From assembly GCA_946482585.1 (NCBI GenBank), contig CAMLSI010000243.1:1-7863 (forward strand): a stretch of DNA of 7,863 nucleotides, given 5' to 3'. This DNA is from an uncultured Lysobacteraceae bacterium. GTDB lineage: Bacteria; Pseudomonadota; Gammaproteobacteria; Xanthomonadales; Rhodanobacteraceae. Below are positions 1 to 7,863 of this stretch, piece after piece (position 1 is the first letter of the stretch; the number at the start of each line of letters is the position of its first letter). The notes under the pieces are model-generated. The model was not told the DNA's origin, ran no database searches, and saw only the letters and a list, made by a program, of their open reading frames with translations. The translations under genes and the position numbers were made by a program.

Positions 1-1
1 G

Positions 2-682
2 CCGATCCTGGACCAGATGGCCGGCGTCTATGCCTATCTCGCGGCATTCGCCGACGTGGGTCCGCCGGGCCCGCTGAACACGCAATACCGGGCGCTGCAG
101 TGCCGGAACCACTGGGCACTGGTCTCCGACGCCGTCGGACCGGGAACCGTCGGCGGCGAAACGCACGCCATGCACCACGAGACCTGGCTCGCTCACGACA
201 AGACCGGCGCGTTGCTGGCCAAGCACCTCAGCTACCGCATCACCGCAATACCCCTGCCGCGCGCGCTGCGCCGGATCCGGATCGCCGATTACCAACGCTT
301 CGAACCGCTGGCGTTCGAGGCTGCCACTCCGCTCGCGCCGGCGGAGCTCCCGCCCACCACGCGCGCGCCGACCTACCGCGCGATGATGTGCGCGCAACGA
401 CCGCTGCGCATCACACAGTTCTCCAAGCGACTGATCACGCGCCTGTCGCCGGCCACGGAACTCGCGCGATTCGTACTGCAGCCGGAAGCACCTCCTGACG
501 CGAATGGCGAATGCGCCGCTGCCGTCATCGACATCGATATCACGAGCAGCGATCCTCACATGCTTCCTTACGTCGACGATTGGATGCGCAACGAAGACGG
601 CGTGGAAGGTTTCGAGGTGCTGCCGGTCGAACGGCCGGTGATCGGCCCGCACTCGCGCCGATTTCGCGTCGTGTTCCGCTGA
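2..682 (+). CDS. Hypothetical protein, 3' part (5' end outside window)
   Basis: The reading frame is open from the window edge and ends in TGA at 680-682. The first internal Met is at 17, but no Shine-Dalgarno sequence precedes it and the frame stays open upstream, so the gene probably begins outside the window. G/C-rich third positions throughout support real coding. About 226 residues are visible. I do not recognise the family. There is no clear membrane segment or signal peptide in the visible part. The first residues (ILDQMAGVYAYLAAF) faintly resemble the last helix of a class I cytochrome c domain, which often reads AVYAYL followed by prolines, but no CXXCH heme motif is visible here. 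The rest is mixed alpha/beta with a late acidic stretch (VIDIDITSSD, about residues 170-180 counted from position 2). It is separated from the next intact gene by a pseudogene on the other strand. Confidence 0.7.
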   Translation, partial: PILDQMAGVYAYLAAFADVGPPGPLNTQYRALQCRNHWALVSDAVGPGTVGGETHAMHHETWLAHDKTGALLAKHLSYRITAIPLPRALRRIRIADYQRFEPLAFEAATPLAPAELPPTTRAPTYRAMMCAQRPLRITQFSKRLITRLSPATELARFVLQPEAPPDANGECAAAVIDIDITSSDPHMLPYVDDWMRNEDGVEGFEVLPVERPVIGPHSRRFRVVFR

Positions 683-779
683 CGGGGCTGCGTCGATCGC
701 GCTGCGCGCCGAGCTCGTCACATCTGCCGGCGCTCTGCCCGCCGCTGTACCCCGACGACGTCCGGCGCGTCGCAACCGC

Positions 780-1105
780 TCAAGGCCCGCGCCGTTTCGC
801 CCGAGGCGTCATGTCGGAATGCAGCAAGCCCTCTCGCGCACCGGGTTTGGTGTAGAGCGTGATCGTCGGCTCGTCGCCGTAGTCCGCTTGCACGACGATG
901 ACGTAAGCACCGCGCCGCGGCGATCGCCCGGAGTTCCTCGATCAATGCGGTGGCAATGCCTTCGCGGCGGTGCGCGTCCGATACCGCAAGGTCGTAGACT
1001 AGATCTCGCTGCGTGCCTGCTCGAACTTGTGCAGCACGTAGGCGGCGAGCCCGCCGACGACTCAGCCCGCTCATCGGATCGCCGAAGGCGAACACCGCTA
1101 CTTCC
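780..1105 (-). pseudogene. Degraded GNAT acetyltransferase, AAC(3)-I-like
   Basis: Read on the minus strand, three adjacent frames together rebuild the C-terminal two thirds of a GNAT acetyltransferase resembling the aminoglycoside 3-N-acetyltransferase I group. Segment 1061-1000 gives VVGGLAAYVLHKFEQARSEI. Segment 999-913 gives [20 protein letters not shown] and continues EELRAIAAA; this is GNAT motif A, with the acetyl-CoA-binding R-R-x-G-I-A signature. Segment 911-780 gives [20 protein letters not shown] and ends [14 protein letters not shown] followed by 11 residues and a TGA. The frame breaks are at about 1000-1001 (one base lost, creating TAG) and about 912 (one extra or two missing bases). 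A third break near 1062 separates a possible earlier strand (VAVFAFGDP) at about 1070-1105. The N-terminal third of the usual ~150-residue protein is not recognisable. Functional AAC(3)-I enzymes acetylate aminoglycosides, and chromosomal relatives often have unknown substrates. No single frame could give an active enzyme. Confidence 0.82.
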
Positions 1106-1350
1106 GGAGCGCATTGTCCGACGCCAGACGCATGGAGCCGCTCCCGGAATCGGAGACCGCGTTTTTCATGACGGCGCAAGACCTGCCGATCCGTGTCGAG
1201 CGGGGCGGCGACGGGCCCGTCGTCGGATTCACGCTAGTGCGCGGAGCGAACAGCTATCCCGCCAAACGGGTGGCGCCGAAGGGACAGCCGGCTACATCCG
1301 GCGCGCAACCGGACCGGACACACAGGCGTCCGTTACCGCTCACAGTCATC

Positions 1351-1357
1351 GAGGAAA
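1351..1357 (+). promoter_or_regulatory. Ribosome binding site deciding the lipoprotein start
   Basis: GAGGAAA lies 8 nt upstream of the ATG at 1366. It supports that start over the longer in-frame ATG at 1114, which would overlap the antisense acetyltransferase remnant and put 84 residues in front of a good lipoprotein signal peptide. Confidence 0.7.
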
Positions 1358-1365
1358 CCCCAGCC

Positions 1366-1875
1366 ATGTTCGATCGTCTTGCCTGCCGTATCGCGTTGCT
1401 CACTCTGTCGTCGCTGGCGTTGGCGGCCTGTGCGGGCATGTCGGATCGACCGACAGCGGACATCGTCGCGTCGAAGCTGGCCAAACCGCGCCAGGTCGTC
1501 CGTATCGATCTGCCGGGCACTGTCGCCACGATCGCGGGCCGACTGGAGACAACCGGCAAGCCGTGTACCGCGTCGACGATACGCGCGTCGGGCGACATGC
1601 CCAGCGGATCCGGCGGCATCGTGTCCATCTCGCCGACGATTCGTCAGAACCTCGAGCGCGGCGTCACGAACGACGGCGGCGTGTGGCTCGCGTTGCGCAT
1701 GGACAGTTCGCTGCACCTCGTCGCGTTCGGCGTGCTGCTCGAACAGAAGGACGCGGAGCGCGTCGAAGCCAAGGTCTTTCCCGCCGATTCGCAGAAAGTC
1801 CCTGCGATCACGGCCGCCCTCGAATCTGGCATGCTGTTCTGCGCGTGGCGCGAGCTCAACTATCCCTATGACTGA
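1366..1875 (+). CDS. Small lipoprotein, unknown function
   Basis: A 169-residue protein with a classical type II (lipoprotein) signal peptide. It has a short N-terminus with Arg4 and Arg8, a hydrophobic core at residues 9-21, and the lipobox L19-A20-A21-C22. Cys22 would be lipidated and become the mature N-terminus. The next residue is Ala rather than Asp, which by the usual rule points to outer-membrane sorting. The mature part holds Cys67 and Cys159, which could form a disulfide in the periplasm. It contains beta-like segments (QVVRIDLPGTVATIAGRL at 43-60 and GVWLALRMDSSLHLVAFGVLL at 105-125). The start is set by the GAGGAAA ribosome site. I do not recognise a family. It stands alone, with a pseudogene upstream and a convergent membrane gene downstream, so context gives no functional hint. 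Confidence 0.85.
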   Translation: MFDRLACRIALLTLSSLALAACAGMSDRPTADIVASKLAKPRQVVRIDLPGTVATIAGRLETTGKPCTASTIRASGDMPSGSGGIVSISPTIRQNLERGVTNDGGVWLALRMDSSLHLVAFGVLLEQKDAERVEAKVFPADSQKVPAITAALESGMLFCAWRELNYPYD

Positions 1876-1975
1876 ACGCGCCGCACGGCGTCGCGCCTCG
1901 CTGCCGCGCGCGGCGCACTGACCACGGCACGGGCGCGGCCGACTCGTCGGAGGCGATTCGCCATCGGCATCCGGA

Positions 1976-2686
1976 TCATTCGCGGTGGGCGGCAATCGCG
2001 GCCTGCACGTCTGCCTGCTTGCCATGCTTGGCGATGTAGCGATCAATCGCATCGCCCGACAACGCGAGGCCCGCGAGCGCGACGATCCAGAGCATCGCTT
2101 CGCGCGCACCGCGCTGCAGCCTCGTGCGCCAGCGCGCGTAGCGGTCACCGAGACGTCTACCCAGCAGCACATGCAACGCCAGCAGCAGCATCGGCGGCGC
2201 GACGAAGATCGCGTCGTAGACCAGCAGCCATGACAACCATTGCACGGCAGGCCATTGGGCCGAGGTCATCAGCGTCGTCGCGGCGAAATACGGCAGCGCG
2301 GTCACCAGTTCCACCGCAGTGATGGTCATGCCCAGCAGTGCCATGCCGGCAAGACCGCCGGCTCCTGGCAGCGACGGTTCGACCGGCTCCCCACCGGCCT
2401 TCGGCGCGAAGATGCCGTAGCCCAGCAGACCCAGTCCGATCGCGAGCTGGATGGCCAGCGCGACCGGATGGCTGAGCGCGTCGCCGAACACGCGCATGGC
2501 CGTGCTCAATCCCAGCATCAATCCGATCCCGAGAACGAGATAAGCCACGAGGATGCCACCGACGTAAGCGATGACCCGCGGCACCGCGCCGGGTTGCGAC
2601 AACAGCCAGAGCGTCACCGCCAGCGCCGACGGATTGAGGCTGTCGATGACGGCGAGGCCGAGCACGGGAATCGTCGGATCGGTCAT
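1976..2686 (-). CDS. GAP/Sap-family six-helix membrane protein
   Basis: A 236-residue integral inner-membrane protein. The N-terminus (GLAVIDSLNPSALAVTLWLL, residues 10-29) carries the D-x-x-N-P signature typical of the GAP / sulfolipid-1-addressing protein (Sap) family. I recall that family as part of the LysE-like transporter superfamily, with export or envelope lipid roles known only in mycobacteria. Hydrophobic helices lie at about 7-29, 38-60, 72-95, 109-135, 148-173 and 197-216. A polar, proline-containing loop (about 96-108) separates the two halves, and the tail is basic/polar. The Met at 2686 is chosen because the conserved motif follows within 13 residues. The frame stays open to 2914, but that stretch is translated intergenic repeat (ARPGCEA twice) and should not be annotated as protein. 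No convincing ribosome site precedes the ATG. The substrate is unknown. Confidence 0.85.
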   Translation of the reverse strand: MTDPTIPVLGLAVIDSLNPSALAVTLWLLSQPGAVPRVIAYVGGILVAYLVLGIGLMLGLSTAMRVFGDALSHPVALAIQLAIGLGLLGYGIFAPKAGGEPVEPSLPGAGGLAGMALLGMTITAVELVTALPYFAATTLMTSAQWPAVQWLSWLLVYDAIFVAPPMLLLALHVLLGRRLGDRYARWRTRLQRGAREAMLWIVALAGLALSGDAIDRYIAKHGKQADVQAAIAAHRE

Positions 2687-2764
2687 GCGGATGCGGGGAA
2701 CGCCAGCGGAGTAGCGGGAGTGTGCCTGCTCGAGCCCGTCGCGTGTGACGGTCCCACATGGGCG

Positions 2765-2808
2765 GGCTTCGCAACCGGGGCGGGCATCGTGGGTGTCCTG
2801 GAGTTGTT
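2765..2808 (+). repeat. 44-bp direct repeat, copy 1, with GTGGGTGTCC core
   Basis: Identical to 2867-2910 (102 bp downstream). It runs from GGCTTCGCAACCGGGG through GGGCATC to the core at 2789-2798 and the tail TGGAGTTGTT. A related GTCGCGTGT lies upstream of each copy (2738-2746 and 2848-2856), with an 8-bp length difference between the units. It lies in the divergent gap between the GAP-family gene and the TPR-like gene. Confidence 0.9.
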
Positions 2809-2826
2809 GTGAGTGTCCTGGAGTTG
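2809..2826 (+). repeat. Partial repeat, degenerate core plus tail
   Basis: GTGAGTGTCC followed by TGGAGTTG: the same core and tail as the flanking 44-bp repeats, with one core mismatch. It directly abuts copy 1, as if only the core-tail half had been duplicated. Confidence 0.75.
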
Positions 2827-2866
2827 CTGTCCTGCCAGCTCGGGCCAGTCGCGTGTCACCGCCCCC

Positions 2867-2910
2867 GGCTTCGCAACCGGGGCGGGCATCGTGGGTGTCC
2901 TGGAGTTGTT
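2867..2910 (+). repeat. 44-bp direct repeat, copy 2, with GTGGGTGTCC core
   Basis: Identical to 2765-2808, with its core at 2891-2900. Its right edge is followed immediately by sequence that reads as coding in the frame of the downstream TPR-like protein (SIADAGSAGASER, then the Met at 2949). Confidence 0.9.
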
Positions 2911-2948
2911 CCATCGCCGATGCCGGCAGCGCCGGCGCATCGGAACGG

Positions 2949-4043
2949 ATGCAGTTCTACGCGACCTCGGCGGGCTGTTTCTACGGCCTGGCGATGCGAG
3001 ACGAGGCCCAAGCCGCCGTGGCCACGGTGATGGCGCTGTCCACGCCGGCGAGCACGAACGAAACCGACGCCGAGAGCCTCGCCCGCGCGGCGCTCATCGA
3101 CGGCCAACTCGCCAGTTCCCGCGGCGAGTATGCCAAGGCACGGGAACGCTACACCGTCGCCGCCGCAGCGGCGGACCGCGGCCGGATCTTCTGGCTGCGA
3201 TGGAGCGCGCTGCGCTACCTCACCGAGGCGTCCATGAATTCCCGCGACTGGCCGGCCGCGCGCGCGTCCGCGCAACACATGGTCGCCTTGAGCACGGATT
3301 TGCGCGGGCGCGACAGCGCCGAGCGTATCCAGGCGTCCGTCACTCTCATCACGATCCTGCGCAACAGCGGTCAACGCGCCGAGCTGCCCCGGCTGCTCGA
3401 CGACGTCGAGGCGTCCGTGCGCCGTGTGCGCGAAGCGGGCGCCTATGAGATTCCCTTCTACCTGCAGACGGACCTCGACTTCGCCGCCGCCGATATCGCC
3501 TTCGACACCGACCGCGATGCCGACTGCGCGCAACGCGCCGATGCCGCGATCGGGGTGCTCAAGCAGCACGACGGCTATCTCACCAACCGCTTCAACCTCC
3601 TCCTGCAGTCCGGTTTCTGCCACTTCGCGCTGCGCCACGCGTCAGCGACGCTGCAACGCGCCGAAGAAGCGCTCGACATCGCGCATCAGCGTATGCGCGA
3701 CAACCACTTGGCCATCGCAGCTCCGCTGCGCCTCATTGCGCTGGCACACCTTGCCGCGGGCGATCTGCCGCAGGCACGCGAGGCCCTGTCCCGGGTGCTG
3801 GACGAACGCCGGCAGGCACCGGCGCCGCGTCCCGTGTTCGACCTCGGCCTCCTGCTCGCCGACGCCCTGCTGTCGCAGCACGAAGGCTGCGCGGTGCGCG
3901 CCCGGATTGCCGGAGCGCTGGGTCGCTTCGGCCTGGCCTACGGCCCCACGGAAATGCGGTCGAACCGGGTCGCGCAACTGCTGCGGAACGAACTCGCGAA
4001 GACGCCGCCGCCGGTCGGAGCCGCCTGTCCGTTCCGCAACTGA
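2949..4043 (+). CDS. TPR-like all-helical protein, possibly 5'-truncated
   Basis: A 364-residue protein from the Met at 2949. It is predicted almost entirely alpha-helical, with alternating A/L/R-rich helices in the TPR/MalT style: AALIDGQLASSRGEYAKARE (about 47-66), FWLRWSALRYLTEASMNSRD (81-100), and a late pair around APLRLIALAHLAAGDLPQAR (258-277), whose G-D-x-x-x-A pattern is typical of TPR helix B. There is no signal peptide, membrane helix or catalytic motif. Such arrays usually form the C-terminal sensing or scaffold part of larger regulators (MalT/LuxR-type, CadC-type winged helix, protein kinases, GGDEF proteins), but no effector domain is present. The frame is open upstream through the repeats to 2745; that part is translated repeat. 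The first residues look like the middle of a domain and only a weak GGAACGG precedes the Met, so the gene may have lost its 5' end at the repeat edge. The frame itself is clearly coding; function is unknown. Confidence 0.72.
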   Translation: MQFYATSAGCFYGLAMRDEAQAAVATVMALSTPASTNETDAESLARAALIDGQLASSRGEYAKARERYTVAAAAADRGRIFWLRWSALRYLTEASMNSRDWPAARASAQHMVALSTDLRGRDSAERIQASVTLITILRNSGQRAELPRLLDDVEASVRRVREAGAYEIPFYLQTDLDFAAADIAFDTDRDADCAQRADAAIGVLKQHDGYLTNRFNLLLQSGFCHFALRHASATLQRAEEALDIAHQRMRDNHLAIAAPLRLIALAHLAAGDLPQAREALSRVLDERRQAPAPRPVFDLGLLLADALLSQHEGCAVRARIAGALGRFGLAYGPTEMRSNRVAQLLRNELAKTPPPVGAACPFRN

Positions 4044-4062
4044 CGCGGCACTGCCGCGCAGA

Positions 4063-4241
4063 GCGCGGGGACGTTGCCGGTAGCGCGGGCACGCGCGAAT
4101 CGGCGAGGGTCATCGTTCAGTGCTGTCGTCCGGCGCTGTCGGCAGCATCGTTTTGTGGGTGTCCAGAAATTCTTCCCGTCCGGATCGCCATCCGGCGGCC
4201 AGGGGGTGCAACGGTGACGGGCATTGTGGGTGTCCCGAATT
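4063..4241 (+). repeat. ~180-bp intergenic repeat unit, copy 1
   Basis: Begins GCGCGGGGACGTTGCC and matches the unit at 4267-4447 with only about ten differences by eye. In order it contains a GTAG-headed short palindrome (4080-4096), a stretch ending GGCAGCATCG, a GTGGGTGTCC core at 4155-4164 with tail AGAAATTCTTCCCGTCC, a small perfect hairpin (CCGGAT-CGCC-ATCCGG), and a second core at 4226-4235 preceded by GCAT with tail CGAATTTGG. A shortened tail copy, GTCCCGAACTTGG, follows at 4248-4260. It begins about 20 bp after the TPR-like stop codon. Confidence 0.9.
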
Positions 4242-4266
4242 TGGCCGTCCCGAACTTGGCCCCAGC

Positions 4267-4447
4267 GCGCGGGGACGTTGCCGGTAGCGCGGGCACGCGC
4301 GAATCGGCGGTGGTCATCGTTCAGTGCTGTCGTCCAGCGCTGTCGGCAGCATCGTCTTGTGGGTGTCCAGAAATTCTTCCCGTCCAGATCGCCATGTGGC
4401 GGTCCAGGGTGTGCAACGGTGACGGGCATTGTGGGTGTCCCGAACTT
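4267..4447 (+). repeat. ~180-bp intergenic repeat unit, copy 2
   Basis: Second copy, about 204 bp after the first. Its cores are at 4359-4368 and 4431-4440, and its GTAG-headed palindrome is at 4284-4300. Differences from copy 1 are scattered single bases plus small indels, so the duplication is old enough to have diverged slightly. The hairpin arm differs (CCAGAT / ATGTGG), with one change compensated and one pair lost. Confidence 0.9.
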
Positions 4448-4521
4448 TGTCCCGAACTTTGTCTCCCGAACTTTGCCCGGCATTGTGGGTGTCCCGAACT
4501 TTGCCGGTGTCCCGAACTTTG
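4437..4521 (+). repeat. Short-period array of TCCCGAACTTTG
   Basis: Five copies of TCCCGAACTTTG follow the second large unit, ending at 4449, 4461, 4475, 4503 and 4521. The first two are spaced exactly 12 bp apart. A complete core (4485-4494, preceded by GCAT) lies before the fourth copy and a partial core (CCGGTGTCC) before the fifth. The array looks like a core-tail junction that has multiplied locally. It ends 65 bp before the LuxR-type gene and occupies its upstream region. Confidence 0.9.
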
Positions 4522-4586
4522 CCCTCCGGCGCGGGGCCTCGATCACGCTGGCCCCGCCTCGTCCCGCCGTGGCACGCTTCCGCGCG

Positions 4587-5009
4587 ATGACCGGACTCTG
4601 GAAACCCATCGTCGGCTATGGCGCGCTGCTCGCGGTCGGGGCGATCGCGCTGCAGTGGCTCGACTACCAGCGGTTGGCGCGGCTGCATTCGGGCGACGTG
4701 GTGCTGTTCGTCGTCGCGACGGTGTTCCTGGTACTCGGCATCGTGCTCGGCGTGCGCGTGTTCGCGCGGCCGGCGCCGGAGCCGTTCGACGGCAACCCCA
4801 AGGCGCAAGCGGCGCTCGGCATCAGCGAACGCGAACTCGAAGTCCTCCGCGAGATCGCCGCAGGGCACTCGAACAAGGAGATCGCACAGCGGCTGTCCGT
4901 CTCGCCCAACACGGTGAAGACGCATGTGGCGCGGCTCTATGAAAAGCTCGGCGCGAAACGACGCACCGACGCCATCCTCAAGGCGCGCGAGCTTGGTTTT
5001 TTGGAGTGA
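4587..5009 (+). CDS. Membrane-anchored LuxR-type HTH regulator
   Basis: A 140-residue protein with two N-terminal membrane helices (about 7-24 and 37-59), a short linker, and a complete LuxR/FixJ-type helix-turn-helix at about 78-140. The HTH shows the usual signature: ISERELEVLREIAAG, then SNKEIAQRLSVSPNTVKTHV with the recognition helix, then LYEKLGAKRRTDAI. It lacks a receiver or autoinducer-binding domain, so it would bind DNA from the inner membrane, or after release from it. The ATG at 4587 is chosen because the membrane helices follow it directly; a GTG at 4569 would add six residues, and neither has a strong ribosome site. The frame remains open to 4224, but that is translated repeat. 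A DUF4199 gene follows 92 bp later on the same strand. I recall small TM-LuxR proteins commonly pairing with DUF4199 proteins in Xanthomonadales. The signal and targets are unknown. Confidence 0.88.
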   Translation: MTGLWKPIVGYGALLAVGAIALQWLDYQRLARLHSGDVVLFVVATVFLVLGIVLGVRVFARPAPEPFDGNPKAQAALGISERELEVLREIAAGHSNKEIAQRLSVSPNTVKTHVARLYEKLGAKRRTDAILKARELGFLE

Positions 5010-5087
5010 TTTCACCGGAATCACCCATTCGGACGATTGCCTGCGGCGCCGACGATGCGGGTCAATGCGGCCATTCGCCCATCCCCC

Positions 5088-5093
5088 AGGAGA
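5088..5093 (+). promoter_or_regulatory. Ribosome binding site of the DUF4199 gene
   Basis: AGGAGA lies 8 nt before the ATG at 5102, by far the best Shine-Dalgarno sequence in the window. It fixes this start against the longer in-frame ATG at 5006. Confidence 0.85.
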
Positions 5094-5101
5094 CGTCACC
5101 C

Positions 5102-5632
5102 ATGCTGCGCAAGATCCTGTCCTACGGCGCCCTCGCCGGCCTCTTCGCCGGCGGCTGTCTGTCCGCGATGGCCATCCTGCTGGCCAGCAAAGGCATGCTG
5201 GAATACGGCGAGGTCGCCGGTTACCTCACGATGCTGATCGCGCTGAGTGCGGTGTTCGTCGCCATCAAGCGCCACCGTGACCGCGCGCTCGGCGGCGTGA
5301 TCGGGTTCTGGCCAGCGTTCGGGTTGGGGCTCGGCATCAGCTTCGTCGCGAGCCTGTTCTACATGGCGTCGTGGGAACTCGCCGTCGCGGTCACCCAGGT
5401 CGATTTCGCGACCAGCTATTCCGATTTCCTGATCGACCAGGAAAAGGCCAAAGGCGCGAGCGCCGAAGCCATCGCAAAACTCAGCGCCGAGATGGAGCAC
5501 TTCAAGGTGATGTACGCCAACCCGCTGATCCGGTTGCCCATGACCTTCCTCGAAATCTTCCCGGTCGGGCTGCTGGTGTCCCTGGCATCGGCCGGCCTGC
5601 TGCGCAACCGCGGATTCCTCCCGGCGCGGTAA
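5102..5632 (+). CDS. DUF4199 family membrane protein
   Basis: A 176-residue inner-membrane protein with helices at about 5-27, 39-56, 68-98 and 143-166, matching the usual four-helix DUF4199 layout and length. The N-terminal YGALAGLFAGG helix and the lysine/glutamate-rich segment between helices 3 and 4 (about 108-138, including FLIDQEKAKGASAEAIAKLS) are typical of the family. The biochemical role of DUF4199 is not established. The start is set by the AGGAGA site. It lies 92 bp downstream of the membrane LuxR-type gene and is probably co-transcribed; partner membrane proteins suggest a shared envelope response, but this is inference from adjacency. Downstream, two hairpin repeats separate it from the convergent peroxidase gene. 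Confidence 0.85.
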   Translation: MLRKILSYGALAGLFAGGCLSAMAILLASKGMLEYGEVAGYLTMLIALSAVFVAIKRHRDRALGGVIGFWPAFGLGLGISFVASLFYMASWELAVAVTQVDFATSYSDFLIDQEKAKGASAEAIAKLSAEMEHFKVMYANPLIRLPMTFLEIFPVGLLVSLASAGLLRNRGFLPAR

Positions 5633-5679
5633 CCTCACCGAATACCCGCCGCCGCGAAGGCTGGTGCGAAGTGCAGACG

Positions 5680-5726
5680 AAATCAAGGACACCCACAATT
5701 GCATGAATGTGGGTGTCCCGATTCGC
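5680..5726. repeat. 47-bp hairpin repeat, copy 1 (inverted cores)
   Basis: Two cores face each other: GGACACCCACA (5687-5697), a 10-nt loop (ATTGCATGAA), then TGTGGGTGTCC (5708-5718). This is a perfect 11-bp stem. The whole 47-bp unit is identical to 5736-5782. It lies 48 bp after the DUF4199 stop codon in a convergent gap and could act as a bidirectional transcription terminator or mRNA-stabilising hairpin. There is no T-run on either side, so intrinsic termination is uncertain. Confidence 0.9.
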
Positions 5727-5735
5727 ACCTCCGCT

Positions 5736-5782
5736 AAATCAAGGACACCCACAATTGCATGAATGTGGGTGTCCCGATTCGC
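5736..5782. repeat. 47-bp hairpin repeat, copy 2
   Basis: Exact duplicate of 5680-5726, starting 56 bp later, with its stem at 5743-5753 / 5764-5774. Complete identity over 47 bp, including the loop, implies recent duplication or strong conversion. The 9 bp between the copies (5727-5735) are not repeated. Confidence 0.9.
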
Positions 5783-5788
5783 CCGCCG

Positions 5789-5818
5789 GTAGCGTGTGCT
5801 CGCGAAAGCGAGCGCACG
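5789..5818. repeat. GTAG-headed REP palindrome
   Basis: GTAG at 5789-5792 is followed by an 11-bp stem (5793-5803 with 5808-5818, one G-T wobble) closed by a GAAA tetraloop, then ATCG. The GTAG tetranucleotide head beside a GC-rich palindrome is the signature of REP elements mobilised by RAYT (TnpA-REP) transposases, for example the SMAG elements of Stenotrophomonas. It matches the REP at 7800-7829 in head, stem start and the trailing ATCG. Confidence 0.8.
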
Positions 5819-5895
5819 ATCGAGGCGGTGAGACGACCCGGTACTCCTCGGTCCTGCAGTCGCCGCGACGACCGCAGGCCGCACTGATCCAGGAC

Positions 5896-7572
5896 TTACT
5901 CGAACCCCGTGCGGAAGATCAGGTCGGCATCGCCGAACACGGTGATCTGGAACGCTTGCGTGATCGCCAGGCTGTTCGCCGCGCCCGGGTCGGCGATGTA
6001 GAAGCGCCCGTACAGCGTCTGGCCCAGCAGCGTGGGATCGTTGCCCAGATTCACGTTGACCGATCCCGAACCACCGCCGCTTCCGGCACCGCCGAGGGCG
6101 ATGGCATGGCTTGCGAAATCGCCAGCGGGGATGGTGGTCTGCAGGCCCGGATCGCTATGGGAAATCACCAGCGTCGCGGCAGCGCCGCCGAGGGCGTTCG
6201 CCACGGAGACGGTGAAATTGGTATTGCCCAGCAACGGCGGTTCGAGCGCGCCGATTTGCGGCACGACATTGCCGGACCCCGCCCGCGCAGTGCCGACGAT
6301 ATGCGGAATCCGATCGCTTTCGGTGAACAAGGTCGGGCGCTGGAACGGACCCGCTTCAGCGGCCACGCGCGGGTCGGTCATCGGTCGCCTCAGGAAGGCC
6401 ACCAGATTGGCTTTCTGCTGCGGCGTCAGGTTGCGCGGGCGGACGCGCGGATCCTTGTTCGGCGCGGTGAAGTCACCGCCGCGGTCATAGAAGTCGACCA
6501 CCTGTTCGAGCGTGGCGAAGCGACCGTTGCTCATGTACGGCGCGCGCAGCTCGGCGTTGCGCAGACTCGGCGTGCGGAACGCGCCGCGGTCCGCCGGGTT
6601 GTTGGTCTGCACGAATCGGCCGAGGTCGTCATCGACGGGCCTCACGCCGATGTAGTGAAACTGATTATCGCTGATCAGCGGACCCGCATGACAGGCCGCG
6701 CAATCGTTGGCGACGAACACCTGCTGGCCGGCGCGCTCCGCGTTGGTCAGCGATGGCGTGCCGCCGCGCTCCGCATCCAGCGGGGTCTGTGTGGCATTCA
6801 ACGTGCGCTCGTACGCGGCGATCGCCATCGCGATGCGCGCCGCAGTGATATCGCGGCTGCCGAAGACTTCGGCGAACAGCGCGGGATAATTCCGGCCGGC
6901 GATCCAGGCCTCGAGCGCATCGGGCACGTTCAGCGCCAGCGCCAGCGGGCGCGCCGATGTCAGGCGATGGCCGATCGTGTTGACGGTCGCGCCGCTGAAG
7001 GCCATTTCGACGGTGTTGACCAGCGGACCCAGCGCCTGATTTTCCAGAGCCCCACCCTGCGGGATCAGCACCTGCGCAGTGAGCGGGTCCACGAACGCAC
7101 CGCCGGCGCGGCCATCCCAGAACAGCAGCGGCGGATAGGCCGCGTTCACCGCCGACGGCGAGCGGCGGGTGCCGACCTGCGCGGCCATGCCGAACGGCGC
7201 TATCGACTGATAGAGCCCGTCCGCGCCGTGCGCCGGCACGCCGGCCGAAGCGCGCAGATCGTCGCCGGTGCCCAGCAGGCCGTCGCGCCCCGGATTGATG
7301 CTGCCGGACATGGCCAGTGCGGTACGCGGATCCCCGCCGCCGCCGAAGGGTCGATGGCAGGTGCCGCAGGCGACCGTCCCGGTGATCGACAGCTGCTCTT
7401 CCCAGAACAGGGCGGTGCCCAGCTGGATCTTCGCCGCCGTCTGCGGATTGCCCGCCGGAATGGGCGGGGGGCCCAGCGGCGGAGGCGGCGGCGGACCACC
7501 CTGACTGCGCGCGTCGGTCGCGCCCAGCAGGGCCAAGAACCCGATCCCGCAGGAAAAGAGCGTCGTCTTCAT
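5896..7572 (-). CDS. Secreted di-heme cytochrome c peroxidase (CcpA/MauG family)
   Basis: A 558-residue periplasmic or exported protein. It opens with a Sec signal peptide (about 1-21), then a proline-rich linker (27-39). The di-heme peroxidase core carries heme motifs C69-G-T-C72-H73 and C291-A-A-C294-H295. Other family hallmarks are GTRRSPSAVNAAYPPLLFWD (134-153), PLVNTVEMAF (183-192), and RTPSLRN followed by APYMSNGRFATLEQVVDFYD (333-363). Met347 in APYM is a candidate distal ligand to the high-potential heme; the residue after it is Ser where relatives usually have His. Such enzymes reduce hydrogen peroxide with electrons from small cytochromes or cupredoxins, while MauG relatives oxidise protein substrates. 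After residue ~420 there is an extra ~135-residue beta-rich domain with a Gly/Ser stretch, ending IFRTGFE. The Met at 7572 is chosen because GGGGGA lies 8 nt upstream; the ATG at 7578 is only 2 nt from it. The frame stays open to 7857 through repeats, which are not coding. Confidence 0.93.
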   Translation of the reverse strand: MKTTLFSCGIGFLALLGATDARSQGGPPPPPPLGPPPIPAGNPQTAAKIQLGTALFWEEQLSITGTVACGTCHRPFGGGGDPRTALAMSGSINPGRDGLLGTGDDLRASAGVPAHGADGLYQSIAPFGMAAQVGTRRSPSAVNAAYPPLLFWDGRAGGAFVDPLTAQVLIPQGGALENQALGPLVNTVEMAFSGATVNTIGHRLTSARPLALALNVPDALEAWIAGRNYPALFAEVFGSRDITAARIAMAIAAYERTLNATQTPLDAERGGTPSLTNAERAGQQVFVANDCAACHAGPLISDNQFHYIGVRPVDDDLGRFVQTNNPADRGAFRTPSLRNAELRAPYMSNGRFATLEQVVDFYDRGGDFTAPNKDPRVRPRNLTPQQKANLVAFLRRPMTDPRVAAEAGPFQRPTLFTESDRIPHIVGTARAGSGNVVPQIGALEPPLLGNTNFTVSVANALGGAAATLVISHSDPGLQTTIPAGDFASHAIALGGAGSGGGSGSVNVNLGNDPTLLGQTLYGRFYIADPGAANSLAITQAFQITVFGDADLIFRTGFE

Positions 7573-7580
7573 CGGCATGT

Positions 7581-7586
7581 TCCCCC
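7581..7586 (-). promoter_or_regulatory. Ribosome binding site of the peroxidase gene
   Basis: On the minus strand GGGGGA lies 8 nt before the ATG at 7572 (protein begins MKTTLFS) and only 2 nt before the in-frame ATG at 7578 (MPMKTT). Spacing favours the later start. Confidence 0.6.
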
Positions 7587-7674
7587 AACCGGCCCCCCTG
7601 TGGACCGCTGGAGCACACGATGGCGGGAGACTGTGCAGAAACGATGGAGAGGATTCAGGGCCTCGAGTCCGGCC

Positions 7675-7772
7675 CGGGATTGAGGACGGGATTGAGGACA
7701 CCCCACAAGTCGGGATTGAGGTACCCACAAAAGGGGCGGGATTGAGGAGGCGGGATTGAGGACACCCACAAA
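7675..7772 (-). repeat. Five-copy CGGGATTGAGGA array with cores
   Basis: CGGGATTGAGG(A) occurs at 7675, 7687, 7711, 7737 and 7751 on the plus strand. Read on the minus strand, the element is a GTGGGTGTCC core followed by the tail TCAATCCCG. One core is exact (7760-7769) and preceded by GCATTTT on the minus strand. Two are damaged: one with an extra C (7696-7706) and one missing two bases (7720-7728). The array occupies the upstream region of the peroxidase gene, about 100-200 bp before its start codon. Confidence 0.88.
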
Positions 7773-7799
7773 ATGCTCGCGCCGCCGATCCCGCCCTTC

Positions 7800-7829
7800 G
7801 TAGCGTGCGGTCGCCATAGGCGACCGCAC
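7800..7829. repeat. GTAG-headed REP palindrome
   Basis: GTAG at 7800-7803 is followed after one base by a perfect 11-bp stem (GTGCGGTCGCC at 7805-7815 with 7819-7829) around an ATA loop, then CATCG. It has the same architecture as the REP at 5789-5818 and lies about 230 bp upstream of the peroxidase gene. The two REPs bracket that gene. Confidence 0.82.
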
Positions 7830-7863
7830 CATCGGGTGTTCCGGCTTTCCGCACCACCGCGAT

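Follow-up and report, generated by a model that had tools for sequence, protein, structure and literature searches.

Why should a single 10-mer recur a dozen times between the genes of one short stretch of DNA, followed by tails that differ from one locus to the next? The stretch comes from an uncultured Lysobacteraceae bacterium (assembly GCA_946482585.1, contig CAMLSI010000243.1, positions 1 to 7,863), and its entire 7,863 nucleotides (nt) are called the window here. An initial annotation of the window reported 12 exact copies of GTGGGTGTCC. We recovered all 12 at the same positions and on the same strands, where shuffled sequence had a mean of 0.01 copies and none of 200 shuffles reached 12. 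None of the copies overlaps any of the seven called genes, which make up 72% of the window, and the locus-specific tails that had been described are also present: the copies are arranged in four arrays (A to D), each with short tails of its own. We propose, with a probability of about 0.7, that GTGGGTGTCC is the end of a REP-like (repetitive extragenic palindromic) but hairpin-less element of TnpA_Y1 transposase subclass 2.3, and that its arrays multiply by cutting and rejoining.

The core and the ends of a Y1 transposase gene

In Lysobacterales relatives, the core adjoins a gene for an HUH/Y1 transposase of approximately 320 amino acids (aa). Alignment of 33 of these proteins showed that both histidines, in an HuH motif of the NHYH kind, and YVDLNP are invariant in all of them. 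In a rougher set of 65 translated stretches, the HxH pattern was found in 58 and the Y pattern in 63. The protein has the Y1/HUH catalytic fold of the TnpA_REP kind. Judged by its motifs, length, insertions and taxonomy against Table 1 of Quentin et al. (2018, PMC6006769), it matches TnpA_Y1 subclass 2.3, for which the accessible text of that paper gives a median length of 325 aa, and it is present in Alteromonadales records. Among class 2 (RAYT-like) Y1 subclasses, the same text names 2.1 and 2.3 as the two in which a REP-like sequence had not been found.

We examined the flanks of 68 of 70 transposase loci, several of which share a genome; L108 and L164 were dropped with more than one gene stretch each. 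Within 250 nt of these genes the core TGGNTGTC was found 130 times facing outward and twice facing inward. At 250-500 nt the counts were 39 and 3, and beyond 750 nt the outward excess was gone. Where an exact TGGNTGTC is lacking, flanks have related forms, among them ATGGCTGTCC, ATGCCTGTCC and GTGTGTGTCC, and the tails there are often duplicated. The generic core NTGNNTGTCY, present on 111 of the 136 gene sides, was counted 243 times outward and 10 times inward. These outward ends are cognate to the gene they flank: the variable pair of bases in the core is the same at both ends in 27 of 46 genes (null expectation 13.7; maximum of 10,000 shuffles 24). As a control we used other Y1 genes, defined by 36 matches to Pfam Y1_Tnp, six of which had no locus; 28 of the remaining 30 loci were used (L235 and L237 were dropped for internal stops). 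Around these 28 genes, from nine of ten of the same genomes, the core occurred only twice outward and once inward within 500 nt. The link to the core is thus specific to subclass 2.3.

The association also holds across genomes. The transposase profile had matches in 94 of 398 genomes of the order, and at least three copies of TTGTGGGTGTCC were found in 14 of these 94 genomes versus 5 of the 304 without a hit (Fisher, 3e-6). Overall, TTGTGGGTGTCC was matched in 160 of the 398 genomes, mostly once or twice, and some genomes had many copies, often 20-60 nt apart. We then counted GTGGGTGTCC and its reversed control in 20 chosen genomes, comprising 13 relatives and 7 comparison genomes without a transposase hit. 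The genome-wide enrichment that the initial annotation had put up for checking was clear in six relatives (G331 124/26, G022 68/8, G027 39/6, G039 26/7, G019 19/1, G264 18/2; core/control), mild in three (G203 23/13, G374 20/12, G175 12/6) and absent in four (G082 12/12, G137 12/10, G377 11/12, G199 9/7). In all seven comparison genomes GTGGGTGTCC was below the reversed control, and no enrichment was found in the eight genomes tried among relatives of the window's peroxidase (25 loci). Several arrays lie near contig ends, so draft assemblies may under-count them. We regard the association of core and transposase gene as strong.

Alternatively, the arrays could constitute a repeat family in its own right, with a regulatory or structural role, in or beside which transposase genes merely insert. 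Such a family would fit with the many arrays that have no gene nearby, including those in the window, and with the GTAG hairpins beside arrays C and D. However, the cores on either side of a gene point away from it and carry matching variable bases, and other Y1 genes of the same genomes lack the core. We therefore consider this explanation very unlikely.

Thirteen plasmid or chromid records also carry the gene (seven from Pseudoalteromonas and one each from Shewanella, Aeromonas, Catenovulum, Vibrio, Photobacterium and Saccharobesus). Their flanks contain 30 generic cores facing outward and 6 facing inward; the pattern demands C or T as the last core base, so that L177, L178 and L182 score none, and L177 and L178 do contain TGGGTGTC with A or G as the next base. 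Phage records contained no transposase protein match at 1e-40; GCATTGTGGGTGTCC matched 21 loci in viral contigs. Beside one subclass 2.3 gene, at L087 1177-1677, an array of two cores is read in frame within an open reading frame whose end, CHLFRHTMAT, we take to be a tyrosine-recombinase-like C-terminus.

Tails and duplication joints

In 20 fetched regions, clusters with at least two cores mostly consisted of a constant core and a locus-private tail. The length of identity 3' of two cores on the same gene side was bimodal: among 283 pairs it was 0-3 nt in 110 and 7-14 nt in 160 (most commonly 8), with 13 others. Between loci it averaged 0.42 nt (4,906 pairs). Tails are thus shared within an array and not across loci, indicating that the tail is neighbouring DNA copied in place. 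To this extent the recombination hotspot suggested by the initial annotation is borne out.

A scan for exact tandem units covered gene flanks, clusters, the window and the Pseudoalteromonas loci and was limited to units 9-399 nt long with the end of the first copy 2-40 nt beyond a core. It yielded 100 distinct events. In 83 of them the first copy stops 7-14 nt beyond the core, a set 3' boundary. The 5' boundary is free: in the 45 events with an unambiguous joint it ranges from 1 nt inside the tail to 302 nt upstream, the commonest point (13 of 45) being between TGGGTG and TC. Units as long as 313 and 340 nt obey the same rule. The joints are homology-free. At the 83 joints, microhomology of 0, 1, 2 and 3 nt was seen 45, 19, 10 and 5 times, versus 45.7, 23.6, 9.1 and 3.1 expected if no homology is used; the other four had 4, 5, 8 and 9 nt. 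The 61 units of at least 12 nt gave 37, 12, 6 and 4 versus 33.6, 17.3, 6.7 and 2.3 expected. There is also a base preference at the cuts, with C or T as the second base before the 3' cut in 43 of 45 events (null 60%; 0 of 20,000 draws) and T at the same position in 8 of 13 5' cuts outside the core (null 23%, p 0.002). Duplications of 12-100 nt are concentrated near the genes: 124 flanks have 57 of them (on 36 sides) within the first 500 nt and none at 900-1400 nt.

In a competing account, the cores mark the element and the tails are multiplied by ordinary polymerase slippage or misalignment where the DNA is fragile or nicked, with the enzyme contributing no more than nicks. Direct repeats of 9-20 nt often arise in this way, and chance 9-nt repeats elsewhere have similar joints. 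Against this, 83 of the 100 events end 7-14 nt past a core, the 61 longer units fit the homology-free expectation, a pyrimidine sits two bases before the 3' cut in nearly every case, and the 313- and 340-nt units behave like the short ones. Since the core sets the 3' boundary and the joints need no homology, replication slippage, which had been raised at the outset, is disfavoured, and we judge it unlikely.

The sites are polymorphic between closely related replicons. Pseudoalteromonas piscicida 2515 and Pseudoalteromonas sp. NC201 are 95-99% identical over most of the long blocks compared and differ at core sites. At one doublet, P. piscicida 2515 has extra copies on both sides: a tail duplication of 13 nt and, opposite it, a 26-nt duplication of core and tail together with a tail copy. 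A second site in this strain has a tail duplication relative to NC201. A 313-bp duplication distinguishes NC201 at a third site; it begins immediately outside sequence akin to the transposase gene and extends to the tail end. Three further sites have insertions or synteny breaks at or beside tail ends, and five single cores are identical in both replicons. The same-genus genomes were too divergent at the tested sites for an empty-site comparison, and in four plasmid searches close matches were limited to the two sister replicons. In P. shioyasakiensis, approximately 0.77 kb extends from a three-core array in strain SDCH90 (L252 4377-5148) where strain A316 (L253) has about 60 nt. The A316 site was considered as an empty site and rejected because it is not clean; the SDCH90 insert is possibly DNA captured by such ends.

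A third explanation treats the core as a terminal inverted repeat, belonging to a DDE insertion sequence or a miniature inverted-repeat transposable element (MITE), and the tail as its target-site duplication. The arrangement GGACACCCAC...GTGGGTGTCC does resemble inverted ends, and 8-10 nt is like a target duplication. However, the tails at the two ends of a gene have at least 6 nt in common in just 3 of 46 listed pairs (L126, L157, L163), and the neighbouring gene encodes a Y1/HUH protein, leaving this explanation with almost no weight. Nor did the open-licence literature searched describe a known insertion sequence or MITE terminus of which the copies could be fragments. The small non-autonomous element suggested by the initial annotation holds in part, with the core as the outward-facing end of a Y1 (RAYT-like) element. 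The DNA-uptake-like signal that it also listed is made less likely by the one-sided orientation of the cores at a single transposase family (130 outward, 2 inward).

Under the cut-and-rejoin model, the arrays in the window would be orphan, non-autonomous copies of this RAYT-like element. The enzyme would recognise the core on single-stranded DNA and cut 3' of it, after a pyrimidine plus one base. The cut end would then be joined at a second cut farther upstream, located on a sister strand or a neighbouring one. Each such event would leave an additional local copy of core and tail; with the second cut inside the core, mainly the tail would be duplicated. The tail would be the first target DNA beyond the core, and hence private to its locus. 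The movable miniature form is probably the back-to-back doublet, as in array C. In the accessible text of a study of TnpA_REP in vitro, cleavage and strand transfer occur between C and T, both 5' and 3' of the REP (PMC8266576).

Several observations weigh against this model. The generic core is missing on 25 of 136 gene sides. Of the 19 genomes with at least three copies of TTGTGGGTGTCC, five have no gene hit (G039, G199, G265, G322, G346), and distances between cores correlate only weakly with distances between proteins (r 0.16, p 0.0014). Chance 9-nt repeats in other DNA likewise show little microhomology, so that the argument depends on the longer units together with the fixed boundary. No significant complementarity between guide and tail was seen within 60 nt upstream (p 0.13), and no clean empty site was found among same-genus genomes, plasmids and P. 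shioyasakiensis. That the neighbouring enzyme makes both the cuts and the joint is something we infer from these patterns.

The arrays in the window and their surroundings

The window contains no subclass 2.3 transposase gene, and its arrays are orphan. They are as follows.

Array A, positions 2723 to 2910, plus strand: cores at 2789 and 2891, a decayed core at 2809 (GTGAGTGTCC), and the tail TGGAGTTG[TC]T three times.
Array B, positions 4059 to 4523, plus strand: cores at 4155, 4226, 4359, 4431 and 4485.
Array C, positions 5680 to 5782, no strand assigned: a 47-nt back-to-back doublet present twice (5680-5726 and 5736-5782).
Array D, positions 7675 to 7769, minus strand: one full core at 7760-7769 and the tail TCAATCCCG five times, four of these behind 2-8 nt of core.

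Array A is built on a unit of approximately 80 nt that is repeated, with 2765-2808 identical to 2867-2910 and 2723-2755 82% alike to 2833-2865. Array B contains a 147-nt unit repeated at a spacing of 204 nt with 93% identity, and its tails are AGAAATTCTTCC, found twice, and CGAA[CT]TT[TG]G, found seven times, four of them behind 3-7 nt of core. The outward tails of array C are TTGATTT on the left and CGATTCGC on the right, and the doublet forms a hairpin as single-stranded DNA (folding z -4.9). The tail forms first described for the window occur 21 times in all, 12 behind a full core and 9 behind just 2-8 nt of core; tail copies outnumber core copies because these nine follow a partial core only. 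A GCAT 1-6 nt upstream, which had been proposed as part of the consensus, is present at 10 of the 12 window copies (the exceptions are the minus-strand copies at 5687 and 5743) and does not extend to the family: the upstream logo of 111 gene-flank ends has only A, A, A, T at positions -5 to -2, at approximately 45-50% each. Two sequences of the canonical REP kind, with GTAG and a hairpin, lie at 5789-5818 (z -3.0) and 7800-7829 (z -5.0). They adjoin arrays C and D, placing two types of repeat in the same gaps.

Directly past array A starts a gene for a TPR protein (364 aa, 2949-4043). A search scored on the 7,993 candidates with the most words in common returned one relative, P0002, which is 60% identical and labelled Rhodanobacteraceae. 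The alignment with P0002 begins only at about residue 76 of the long open reading frame (2745-4043). From this arrangement of the sequence, array A may have replaced or displaced the 5' end of the TPR gene. Between arrays C and D, a di-haem peroxidase (CCP_MauG) is encoded on the minus strand at 5896-7572. It has relatives in Lysobacterales metagenome-assembled genomes, among many other groups, and ends in FRTGFE, presumably the C-terminal tail known from other secreted proteins of Lysobacterales. We assign the window to Lysobacterales, probably to Rhodanobacteraceae.

Hairpin-less ends and known systems

Single ends do not fold. At 110 ends the mean folding z was -0.1 against mononucleotide shuffles, with 1 of the 110 below -2, whereas 16 of 105 control stretches 300 nt farther out were below -2 and thus fold more than the ends themselves. 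The window ends of arrays A, B and D had z values of 0.01, -2.11, 0.78 and -0.81. The defining feature of a REP is therefore missing, which would explain why structure-based searches missed a repeat for subclass 2.3. Of 110 ends, 28 had GTAGG within 60 nt upstream and 5 had it downstream; this motif is possibly a relic of the GTAG of REPs.

These ends can be compared with several described systems. The transposase resembles subclass 2.3 as characterised by Quentin et al. (2018, PMC6006769) in its HxH and YVDLNP motifs, in a length near the median and in its occurrence in Alteromonadales; the accessible text gives no REP-like sequence for this subclass, whereas here there is an outward, linear core with local tails. 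REPs and REPtrons (RAYT subclasses 2.2, 2.4, 2.5 and others) likewise have inverted repeats around a Y1 gene, here seen in relatives only, and copies elsewhere in the genome. However, a REP has GT[AG]G at the foot of a stem-loop, whereas the single ends here are hairpin-less and their core is not anchored on GT[AG]G. A REPIN is an inverted doublet that forms a hairpin, a description that fits array C only, as arrays A, B and D are not doublets. In the portions of the REP literature consulted, no variable tail with a fixed outer boundary is described for REPs or REPtrons.

TIRYTs and TIRtrons (Di Nocera et al. 2013, PMC3733652) are alike, in the text accessible, in that a RAYT-like gene is flanked by inverted repeats other than REPs, some of them as dimers or in clusters. 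Their repeats share GGGGWSAS, and PMC6006769 assigns 20 of the 26 examples to subclass 2.1. By contrast, the core here is TGNNTGTCY without GGGGWSAS, and the gene is of subclass 2.3. In five of the control Y1 flanks, which are TIRYT-like (L211, L214, L218, L223, L229), we saw by eye short, locally repeated tails after CTGACCCC-like or TGGCACC-like cores. That family may undergo the same kind of copying. IS200/IS605 elements (IS608, ISDra2), as outlined in the accessible parts of PMC6006769 and PMC8266576, have a small transposase and subterminal hairpins, with guide pairing that picks the cut; neither hairpin nor guide pairing was detected here, the guide search covering 60 nt upstream.

Tandem REPIN clusters are similar in that their tandem copies include flanking sequence, and in the accessible text their authors proposed that clusters form by a second mechanism (Bertels and Rainey 2011, PMC3116915). 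Those clusters consist of hairpin REPINs, whereas the ends here are hairpin-less with a fixed boundary and homology-free joints. This boundary and these joints suggest what the second mechanism could be. A broader proposal, to which we give even odds, is that transposases of subclass 2.3 make up a sequence-directed machinery by which DNA is duplicated in tandem without homology, and in which a linear, hairpin-less core would direct a pyrimidine-N cut at a set distance and rejoining to a similar upstream site, turning the flank of each target into a private array. Other Y1 families (TIRYT, RAYT) may do likewise with other cores, which would explain tandem REPIN clusters.

The open-licence literature searched, as far as its text was accessible, describes neither a repeat for subclass 2.3 nor tails with a set cut distance. 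We place these ends in a system of the RAYT/REP kind, strongly associated with its gene, with a mechanism that is unproven and can be tested. Subclass 2.3 thereby gains a cognate DNA end. The arrays would be a record of single-strand cutting and joining from which the cut-site preference can be read in genomes, and two open questions become testable, namely the origin of such repeat clusters and the effect of these transposases on the genomes of their hosts.

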